Origin: Cladochytrium replicatum | Taxonomy: Eukaryota > Chytridiomycota > Chytridiomycetes > Cladochytriales > Cladochytriaceae | Reading direction: 5' to 3' | Assembly: GCA_025526935.1 (NCBI GenBank) | Contig: JAHLKD010000112.1 | Location: forward strand, 106,640 to 170,639 | Length of the DNA: 64,000 nt | In this document: positions 60,740 through 64,000 of the stretch, piece by piece | Layout of the letters: each line of letters starts with the position of its first letter | How positions within the stretch are numbered: the first letter of the stretch is position 1 | Position numbers and translations under genes: made by a program | Notes under the pieces: generated by a model | Seen by the model: only the letters and a program-made list of their open reading frames with translations | Databases searched by the model: none | What the model was told of the DNA's origin: nothing

Positions 60740-61377
60740 GGGCGATGTGATTTGATCAGTTTTAGTGCTGCTGATCTGGGACTTGCGCTAGAGATAGTCC
60801 TCAGGTTGATCTGTGTATGTGCAGAGTTTCGTGTTTCTCCAATCACGCTCTTGCGCCACAGCCACCCGAAATCTCATATCGCCACAGGCTCTTTGAATTG
60901 TGCAAACAATTCAAATATACTGTCGTTTCGGCTTTTATAATTAACCTGTGGCTATAGATATATGGAAATATCTGATATAAACATTATTCTCTCGAATAGA
61001 GAGATATAGATCCCAGTGATCGTTCACAATAACCATTGTGAGCAGAACATGAAGATTAGCTATAATCTTGTCTACAATGACATGTTCTCTATGAGAAATA
61101 AGTATGTAGTACCTTGCATTAATATCATATGAGATGTACTCGAGTATGATATAACTGTCAGCAGCAAACTGATTAGCATCACATTCTTTCTCAAACGCGT
61201 GATCACTCTCAGAACTCTACTAGATTCCAATGAGTAAAGGAGGATGTCTTCATGACCAATAGTTAGAAATGCCAGTTCTTTCATGTAATGTATGATTACG
61301 CATGAACTTGTCCCAGACGTCTCTGGTAAGGCTATTTCCCCTAACAGTTATTCCAAGCCGGAATGTTAATAACATTC
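60740..61377. other. AT-rich subtelomeric gap
   Basis: Between the OrsD-like relic and the 33-bp array. No gene or structured RNA recognised. Confidence 0.45.
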
Positions 61378-61522
61378 GGACGGACCGTCCAACGCGTTTT
61401 TATTAGGCGCGGACGGACCGTCCAACCAATTTTTATTAACCATGGACGGACCGTCCAACGCGTTTTTATTAGGCGCGGACGGACCGTCCAACCAATTTTT
61501 ATTAACCATGGACGGACCTTCC
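61378..61522 (+). repeat. 33-bp tandem array with GGACGGnCCGTCC palindromes
   Basis: Five palindrome cores start at 61378, 61411, 61444, 61477 and 61510, exactly 33 bases apart. The first four read GGACGGACCGTCC; the fifth is GGACGGACCTTCC. Spacers alternate between AACGCGTTTTTATTAGGCGC and AACCAATTTTTATTAACCAT, so the higher-order period is 66. An 11-aa repeating open frame is a by-product of the 33-bp length. The 6+1+6 inverted repeat looks like a dimer binding site. Confidence 0.95.
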
Positions 61523-62280
61523 AGATGCAATTTATTCGGCTTCAACTGTAATTCATGCTACCTCAGTCTCTCTTGTAGCTGGTTTTTCACTAAGTCTTTT
61601 CATTTCATGGGCCGAGCGATGATGCTGTTGGGCGAGAGTCCTTTGATTTCGTGGGCAAGAGCATGCTACTGGAGTAGAGAACTGATTCTTTGTATTTGAT
61701 TGTCCAAAATCTCCACCAACCTTACACCGCGATAACAAGCTTCTCAGCCACAACGGGAGATATCCTTGTCAGGAAACCAGAGGCAAGGCCAGACCACAGG
61801 GTCTTCCTGCTATAGATAGTGGATCCCACCTCCCTCTCCGTGTCCATACCACAGCTTCTCGAGGGTATTTCCAAACAGCGAAGTCCAGAAAGTGGCATCC
61901 ATGATCTGAGAAAGTTTCGGACAGCAGAGTAACATCTTCTTGAAGCTGAAAAAGACCACAGCAAATTCGAGCAAGCTCTGTAAACTTTTCCGTATTTTGT
62001 AGATATAGGAAGAGAAGGGACTTCATCGCGTATGCTGCATGACAATGGGTGGATGTGGCACGAAGTAGGCAATCTTTTTCAAGTAAAGGCACGGAATTTC
62101 CCTACTGTACGATAGGGTCAGTTAAAAGACGGACAGATTCAGACTGAACCGCGAACCGATTCCGACTCAGACAACTCAGAACGGCGCAATGTCCGTGGAA
62201 GATGGATAGGGTCTGACATCGATTGCATCTGCGCAGTGTAGAAGTTAATTTGGTTCGGGTGAATGTAGAGGAAACACAGC
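61523..62280. other. Subtelomeric gap, nothing recognised
   Basis: A minus-strand open frame near 61722-62072 has no recognisable domain and I do not call it. Confidence 0.4.
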
Positions 62281-62339
62281 AGTTTCAATGTGGAGTAGCT
62301 GTTCTTCTGTCCTGCTCTTGCACGCGGGAAAGTGGTTCC

Positions 62340-63500
62340 AACCGGGTACTATGAGTCACGCGACTTCGCGAGGTCCGTACCTCGCAAACTTTGGAGTTGG
62401 TTTCCGGCTCAACCGCGCTCGCGCGCGACTGGCACCCCATACAAGCCAAATAGATGAAGAAGGCCACTTTTGGTATACCGAGTCTGGCGAGCAGGTAAGA
62501 ATCCGTACCCGATCCTACCCCAGGGGTCGCGTGAGTTTAGCTACTCGAGGTCCAGATCTGTACCTTGATCCCAAAAGTTAACGTGATACCATACCCGCAT
62601 GCGAGTAGCGCCTCATACAAGCGGAATAGAAGTACGTCGATGGGGGCATACCGAGTCTGGCGAGCAGGTAAGAATCCGTACCCGATTACCCCAGGGGTCA
62701 CATGATTTTAGCTATTCGAGGTCCAGATCTGTACCTCGATCCCAAGGGTTACGTGATACCATACCCACAAGAAGTACATCGATGTTGGTATACCGAGTCT
62801 GGCGAGCAGGTAAGAATCCGTACTGGATCCCACTCCGGGGTCACGTGATTTTTCGAGGTCCGTACCTCGCAAACTTTGGAGTTGGTTTCCGGCTCAGCCG
62901 AGCTCGCGCGCGACTGGCACCCCATACAAGCCGAACAGAAGAAGTACACCGCTGGGTTTAATAACCAAGCTAAAAACGTCTTGTGGTTTGGATCTCTCTT
63001 GCCCCGGGGTCACATGATTTTAGCTATTCGAGGTCCAGATCTGTACCTCGATCCAAGGTCACGTGATACCATACCCACAAGAAGTACATCGATGTTGGTA
63101 TCCCGAGTCTGGCGAGCGTGTACAGATGCGTAACCGATCCTACCGCTGGGGTCACGTAATTTTTTGAGGTACGTTCCTAGCAAACTGCAAACTTTTGAGT
63201 TGGATTCCCGCTCAGCCACCCGAGCACGAGTAGCACCTCATACAAGCTCGGGTGAAGAAGTACCCCGCTGTTGGTACACTGAGTCTGGCCAGCGGGCAAG
63301 GTCAGTTCCTTCTCCAACTCCCCGGGGTCGCACGATTCTAGCTCTTGGAGGTTCAGATCGGAACCTCGATCTTGAAGGTTCACGAATTTCCCAACCACCT
63401 ACTTACTGCTGAGCAAAACTTGGGGGTCGGTTTCCCGGTCAACCACGCACGGGCGCGCGAGTTGCACTTCATACAGATAGGCGCGCGAATTGCACTTCAT
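62340..63500. repeat. Degenerate subtelomeric direct repeats
   Basis: Two block types recur. Block A (GGTCCGTACCTCGCAAACTT, then GGAGTTGG and a CGCGCGAC core, ending CCATACAAGCC) is at 62370-62450 and 62855-62939, with diverged copies near 63165-63247 and 63425-63480. Block B (ACCGAGTCTGGCGAGCAGGT, then AAGAATCCGTA) is at about 62477, 62650, 62791 and 63101. Shared linkers such as GAGGTCCAGATCTGTACCT sit between them. All lie in direct orientation, as in subtelomeric repeat families spread between chromosome ends. Confidence 0.85.
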
Positions 63501-63861
63501 ACAGATAGCAGAAGTAGAGAGCTCGGTGCAATGAATCAGCAAACATGGTACAAATATCTTCCTGCTCCAAACCAACCAGAGGTCAGGTTATTTTTTACCA
63601 GGTATGTACCTGGCGAATCTGGGTGTCAGGGCTCGGGACTAGCACTCTCACTCACAAGATGTGCTTTAGCCTAGGGCCAAGTAACATGTTTAGAAGAAAT
63701 AGCTAGGGATCGCAACGACAGGGGCCCTGGTATGGAATCAACTACTTTGGTTGATTAAACCATCACTCAAAGAAAATGTCAATCACAAAACCAAACAGGG
63801 GCCGTGGCTACAGTGACGGGGATTGCTCAAGGGATTGCGGAGATTCTCCACGGGGTGTTTG

Positions 63862-64000
63862 GGGTAGTTAGGGTTAGTTAGGGTTAGTTAGGGTTAGTTA
63901 GGGTTAGTTAGGGTTAGTTAGGGTTAGTTAGGGTTAGTTAGGGTTAGTTAGGGTTAGTTAGGGTTAGTTAGGGTTAGTTAGGGTTAGTTAGGGTTAGTTA
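63862..64000 (+). repeat. Telomere: 13 perfect copies of a 10-nt repeat (TTAGTTAGGG)
   Basis: From 63871 to the window end the sequence is GGGTTAGTTA repeated 13 times without a single mismatch, preceded by one imperfect unit (GGGTAGTTA, 63862-63870). The G-rich strand runs 5' to 3' toward the end, as required of a right telomere. The unit equals TTAGGG plus TTAG. Confidence 0.97.

Follow-up and report, generated by a model that had tools for sequence, protein, structure and literature searches.

Telomeres composed of 10-base units are described for the Yarrowia clade of budding yeasts, in which TTNNNNAGGG repeats were reported for 12 of the 13 species examined (PMC6746865). Seven species of this clade, including Y. 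lipolytica, carry TTAGTCAGGG, and five have one or two substitutions in the spacer (PMC6746865); in view of these five spacer variants, it may be that a yeast with the very unit described below, TTAGTTAGGG, has already been reported. In the chytrid Batrachochytrium dendrobatidis the ends carry (TTAGGG)n (PMC6284735, PMC11797018). A survey of fungal telomeres assigns TTAGGG to most of the Pezizomycotina and Basidiomycota examined, and Chytridiomycota are not mentioned in its main text (PMC10100673). Lengthened units have been reported for Allium (CTCGGTTATGGG), Aspergillus oryzae (TTAGGGTCAACA) and Bombus (TTAGGTTGGGG), with a matching telomerase RNA template in the case of Allium (PMC10767889).

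The window analyzed here, which is the whole stretch of 64,000 nucleotides, terminates in an array of TTAGTTAGGG. As in the Yarrowia clade, this is a homogeneous 10-base unit in which TTAGGG is interrupted by four bases. It fits TTNNNNAGGG and is one base off the Y. lipolytica unit TTAGTCAGGG; over the genome, the 10-base unit TTNNNNAGGG is represented by TTAGTTAGGG in 779 of the 841 complete units read. Yarrowia is, however, a budding yeast with a known RNA template, whereas the present genome contains a radial-spoke gene and its template is predicted from the repeat. The array shares with the telomeres of B. dendrobatidis the G-rich strand and the location at contig ends, and TTAGGG of the latter is contained in TTAGTTAGGG; the difference is that TTAGGG stands in tandem at the ends of B. 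dendrobatidis, whereas here (TTAGGG)3 occurs once and internally. The unit also resembles those of Allium, Aspergillus oryzae and Bombus in being longer than in related groups, as is seen in several lineages. These units involve other bases and other lineages, whereas the additional part of TTAGTTAGGG is an exact duplication of TTAG.

The initial annotation considered the repeat to be either lineage-specific or new. The kind of telomere is known, since 10-base TTNNNNAGGG units are present in the Yarrowia clade (PMC6746865), while the host lineage and the exact TTAG duplication look new within the literature searched. Among the open-access PMC matches listed, no title or beginning of an abstract presents TTAGTTAGGG as a natural telomere (figures, supplements and TeloBase lie outside this scope), and none of the titles and abstract beginnings listed for chytrid telomeres names this unit. 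No match to a 30-mer of the repeat was obtained in the collections of prokaryote and viral sequences, a result of little bearing on fungi.

The radial-spoke family PF04712 was detected in the genome by a profile search (best E 2.9e-47) and in 0 of 14 control genomes, and a myosin-motor chitin synthase is encoded in the window; both point to a flagellated fungus. Radial-spoke genes are not known from budding yeasts. Since the radial-spoke gene puts the genome far from Yarrowia, the likeness of the two telomeres is probably convergent. This gene, the genome size of 50.5 Mb and the apparently intron-split gene of telomerase reverse transcriptase (TERT) place the host outside the Yarrowia clade of Saccharomycotina.

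Terminal array and contig ends

The telomeric array (63865..64000, + strand; window sequence and TRF) has its G-rich strand running 5'->3' in the direction of the chromosome end. It forms the last 136 bases of the window without a single error and consists of a 9-base partial unit TAGTTAGGG, 12 uninterrupted TTAGTTAGGG units (63874-63993) and a 7-base partial unit TTAGTTA; the 13 units counted in the initial annotation are right to within these partial units. The corresponding TRF row extends over 63857-64000 (14.4 copies, 98%). The final base of the window is also the final base of contig C112 (170,639/170,639). The window very probably terminates at a genuine chromosome end, that of an apparently flagellated fungus with nearly homogeneous, template-encoded TTAGTTAGGG telomeres.

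The assembly includes 198 contigs (50.5 Mb) with 396 contig ends. The 20-mer TTAGTTAGGGTTAGTTAGGG is found in it at 743 places (382 + 361), and its read-backwards control at none, which excludes chance. Arrays were read at 67 contig ends (35 right and 32 left), all of them oriented with the G strand towards the contig end. These ends were gathered by boundary patterns and direct fetches, that is, by searching for TTAGTTAGGG, and are of the TTAGTTAGGG type by selection; ends with another repeat would be missed, the other units searched for being TTAGGG and TTAGTCAGGG. The independent facts obtained from this census are thus the purity of the arrays and the absence of other arrays. An array was also seen at the end of C68, outside the 67 ends analyzed. 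The length of the arrays in the assembly is 94-178 bases (median 135, 67 ends), and the contigs bearing them reach 926 kb. The array is absent from 8 of the 8 contig starts fetched without prior evidence; contig ends devoid of arrays are expected, because the assembly is fragmented. The same G-rich repeat is located at many ends, as for a telomere made by telomerase.

In the assembly sequence of the 67 arrays, 779 of the 841 complete units are exact TTAGTTAGGG and 62 deviate; 29 of the 67 arrays lack any deviation. The absence of errors claimed earlier thus holds for the window array and does not hold genome-wide. The commonest deviating units are TTAGGG (16), TTAGTTTAGGG (10), TTAGTTAGGGG (5), TTAGTTAGG (5) and TAGTTAGGG (5). 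The last four, with a one-base change in the GGG or TT run, make up 25 of the 62 deviating units and can be due to sequencing error or to biology. Changes of this type are typical of long-read error, which could be taken to mean that the arrays are an assembly or polishing artefact of true TTAGGG telomeres, or contamination. Such an origin is very improbable: a four-base insertion in one place, repeated in 779/841 units at 67 ends, is not an error of the homopolymer type, arrays stand on contigs of up to 926 kb, and the 10-base period is also found in 18 stretches (at least 16 bases) at 17 loci inside contigs. The 10-base TTAGTTAGGG telomere proposed in the initial annotation is thereby confirmed as real and genome-wide (67 ends, 779/841 units exact).

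No TTAGGG arrays were found at the ends: TTAGGGTTAGGGTTAGGG is present once in 50.5 Mb, internally on C114 (control 1 + 1). At the ends TTAGGG is represented only by scattered single units (16/841), which stand at unit positions 2 to 12 and are not confined to the inner edge. A search for ends carrying only TTAGGG thus leaves the earlier claim standing, with three consecutive TTAGGG units once, internally, and TTAGTTAGGG in the 67 end arrays; the chromosome ends do not have canonical telomeres of tandem TTAGGG. Units of the Y. lipolytica type, TTAGTCAGGG, were observed at three ends, either within the array or at its inner border, on C125 (L086), C10 (L016) and C109 (L148). A doubled TTAGTCAGGG is found at a single place of the genome, the inner border of the array on C125.

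Subtelomeric sequence, junctions and internal stretches

Subtelomeric blocks common to other telomeric contig ends were detected by BLAST at 61339..63434. Their length is 387-1610 bp and their identity 85-97% (25 of the 40 longest BLAST rows), and the 40 longest BLAST rows of the subtelomeric region lead to 21 contig ends. This region includes a tandem 33/66-bp repeat (61377..61540) with the palindrome GGACGG(A/T)CCGTCC at 61378, 61411, 61444 and 61477. The same palindrome is present in the flanks of 16/63 contig ends, the end of the window included, and also in the internal locus L001; it is a candidate for a protein-binding site or a hairpin of the subtelomere.

Similarity of the flank to that of another end was found for 57/67 ends. 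This, together with the wide sharing of subtelomeric blocks, would be expected if the ends were kept not by telomerase but by recombination, with a short tandem array or subtelomeric repeats spreading among them. The shared flanks are, however, cut at differing points, and a common junction was found in only 1 pair among the 67 ends, whereas recombination would copy junctions. The differing cut points at nearly every end suggest that ends are often lost and telomeres then seeded anew. The occurrence of independent junctions in narrow registers, considered below, points to addition by telomerase, and a TERT gene is present. Maintenance by recombination is accordingly left with hardly any probability.

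The register of a junction was defined as the number of array-phase bases that extend inward before the first complete-unit boundary. For registers of 2 to 10 bases the counts are 3, 6, 13, 17, 15, 4, 3, 5 and 1 (67 ends), with peaks at AGGG (13), TAGGG (17) and TTAGGG (15) and a drop to 4 at GTTAGGG. Merging of the single pair with a common junction gives 66 independent junctions, 44 of which are in registers of 4-6 bases (p = 9.4e-10 against 0.3 for an even spread over ten registers; this uniform null ignores chance extension by 1-2 bases, which would shift the counts slightly upward). The junction of the window, in which the flank GTTTGGGG (63857..63864, + strand) is followed by TAGTTAGGG, is in a less typical register, with 9 array-phase bases before the first complete-unit boundary, and is atypical compared with the other ends. 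The distribution looks as if the ends were seeded separately by telomerase, always from the same template edge. A break with a terminal A, TA or TTA would pair with the template at its 3' edge, and GGG would be added first. To judge from the sharp drop past TTAGGG, the predicted template has its 3' edge after CCCUAA.

Internal telomere stretches of at least 16 bases number 18 and belong to the 17 loci mentioned above. Registers 3-6 start 15 of these 18 stretches (p = 0.0002 against 0.4), although not all starts are clean, since a degenerate cluster (L139) contributes two of the 18 and L001 a further one. At lower thresholds the same registers start 17/25 stretches (at least 15 bases, p 0.004) and 24/35 stretches (at least 14 bases, p 0.0006), the shorter stretches being biased by the search patterns. 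L110 and L111 (duplicates of L108 and L109) and L132 (an end array) were left out of the internal set. The internal stretches may have been inserted by telomerase when breaks were repaired; such an origin has been proposed for interstitial repeats of vertebrates (PMC8537989).

The surroundings of C17:176725 and C60:287840 (L116 and L131), as well as those of L142 and L106, look alike by eye, without an alignment, so some internal stretches may ride on a repeat family and not represent independent events. Two perfect internal stretches start in an unusual register (TTAGTTAGGG): one of 27 bases at C47:128646 (L106 about 2641-2667) and one of 20 bases at C152:52345 (L107 about 2343-2365). L001 contains degenerate head-to-head telomere repeats at about 1480-1545 (C1 about 73,691-73,756), a short G-rich part followed by a longer C-rich one. 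They overlap a 5S rRNA match (L001 1413-1519) and are followed by the palindromic repeat common in end flanks (3 copies in L001). This site, 73 kb inside the contig, looks like a relict end or a telomere fusion.

Template of the repeat and components of telomerase

The unit can be divided into TTAG and TTAGGG, each of which could be copied from a canonical template. It could thus be produced by an enzyme with an ordinary TTAGGG-type template that stops alternately after TTAG and TTAGGG; plain TTAGGG (16/841 units) and TTAGTTAGTTAGGG (2/841 units) would agree with pausing in two registers. The number of TTAG copies per cycle is 1 in 20, 2 in 805 and 3 in 3 of 828 units, where copy classes were assigned by hand and 13 irregular units of 841 were left out. 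In these classed units the probability of a further TTAG is 0.976 after the first copy and 0.0037 after the second. The counts do not form a geometric series, which rules out memoryless stutter or pausing on a six-base template. To alternate so regularly, the enzyme would have to recognize six or more bases of the DNA that it has made, and this is in effect equivalent to a longer template. Pausing in two registers is hence unlikely. The initial annotation preferred a change of the template to such pausing, and this preference is supported by the unit counts, which exclude the memoryless form of pausing, with the template itself predicted from the repeat.

We infer from the repeat sequence that all 10 bases are encoded by an RNA template with four added bases. 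The predicted template would be close to 5'-(C)UAACUAACCCUAA-3' and would correspond to the usual CUAACCCUAA with one extra CUAA; its 3' edge would lie after CCCUAA. The DNA 3' end ...TTA(G) could pair with CUAA at the template 3' edge, after which telomerase would add GG(G)TTAGTTA(G) as far as the template 5' edge; the product would then slip back and pair again. Rare TTAGGG units could result from early slips after the first TTAG (about 2%), and TTAGTTAGTTAGGG units from very rare repeats of TTAG. If the template cycle is true, primers ending in TTA, TTAG and TTAGTTAG should give a 10-base ladder. The balance tips slightly towards a broader reading, in which CUAA was exactly duplicated in the template independently of Yarrowia, a telomere other than TTAGGG is seen for the first time in a flagellated fungus, and the 66 junctions together with the internal stretches record the template 3' edge.

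The TERT gene is located on C47 (L011). It comprises Telomerase_RBD exons (E 1.7e-6 and 5e-4; 5.0e-6 and 2.4e-5 in another search) and exons with reverse transcriptase motifs recognized by eye, all of them read as separate exons; the gene is apparently split by introns. The reverse transcriptase exon with motif-C residues matches the PDB telomerase reverse transcriptase 7qxa_A (29-114 to 837-908, E 1.8e-6), which we take to be the human enzyme. Two separate TERT exons of the open reading frame list carry VDVKTAFDCI and LLLRYVDDFLFIS, presumably motif A and motif C of the reverse transcriptase, respectively. Taken singly, the exons score below the Pfam cut-off for RVT_1. By the other matches the genome encodes a TERT with catalytic motifs, as for a telomere made by telomerase.

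Searches of the genome with template-like patterns did not reveal the telomerase RNA gene. Three patterns, which exclude most positions in long arrays and include places at contig ends in their counts, gave 96, 60 and 19 places against 5, 17 and 2 in the read-backwards controls. There are 55 distinct internal telomere-like places by count (37 + 14 + 4); since they are many and exceed the controls, a template match alone cannot identify the telomerase RNA. Contexts of 198 bases were read for 36 places of the first pattern (among them the one on C75, in fact an end array), contexts of 80 bases for the 14 new places of the second, and longer loci for C47 and C152; the four places added by the third pattern, C1:666455, C9, C40 and C152:47271, enter the count by their pattern match. 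Templates in which the excluded base happens to match escape these patterns, as do most of those shorter than 16 bases in other phases. No Rfam telomerase family had a match in the loci scanned, C47:128646 and C152:52345 included. C47:128646 is situated 3' of a gene taken for Sec23 by eye.

Several places were rejected as the telomerase RNA gene, partly by eye, and none of the contexts read favoured a candidate. Those on C2, C14, C33, C102 and C30 are situated in an open frame or reach one after about 100-450 bases. C1:73712 is a degenerate inverted array, C2:609470 lies within an open frame of 165 aa, and at C14:367788 a gene ends less than 100 bases away. A reading frame adjoins or crosses C25:256495 and the place on C19. 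C33:303158 has a secreted-protein-like frame about 430 bases downstream, and the fold of this stretch is unremarkable (z -1.39). The places on C102 and C30 have frames about 280-450 bases away, and that on C123 is self-complementary.

Telomerase RNA, telomere-binding proteins and the protection of chromosome ends are all linked to the sequence of the telomere, and a clean change of the unit represents a natural experiment. No telomerase RNA of a zoosporic fungus is named in the titles and abstract beginnings of the literature matches listed, and the 10-base unit could serve as a bait for finding it. The internal duplication would provide telomerase with two similar TTAG pairing sites, and exactly two TTAG copies are found in 805 of the 828 classed units (97%). 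With two pairing sites and yet a nearly fixed number of TTAG copies, the choice of repeat register would be directly testable in this genome.
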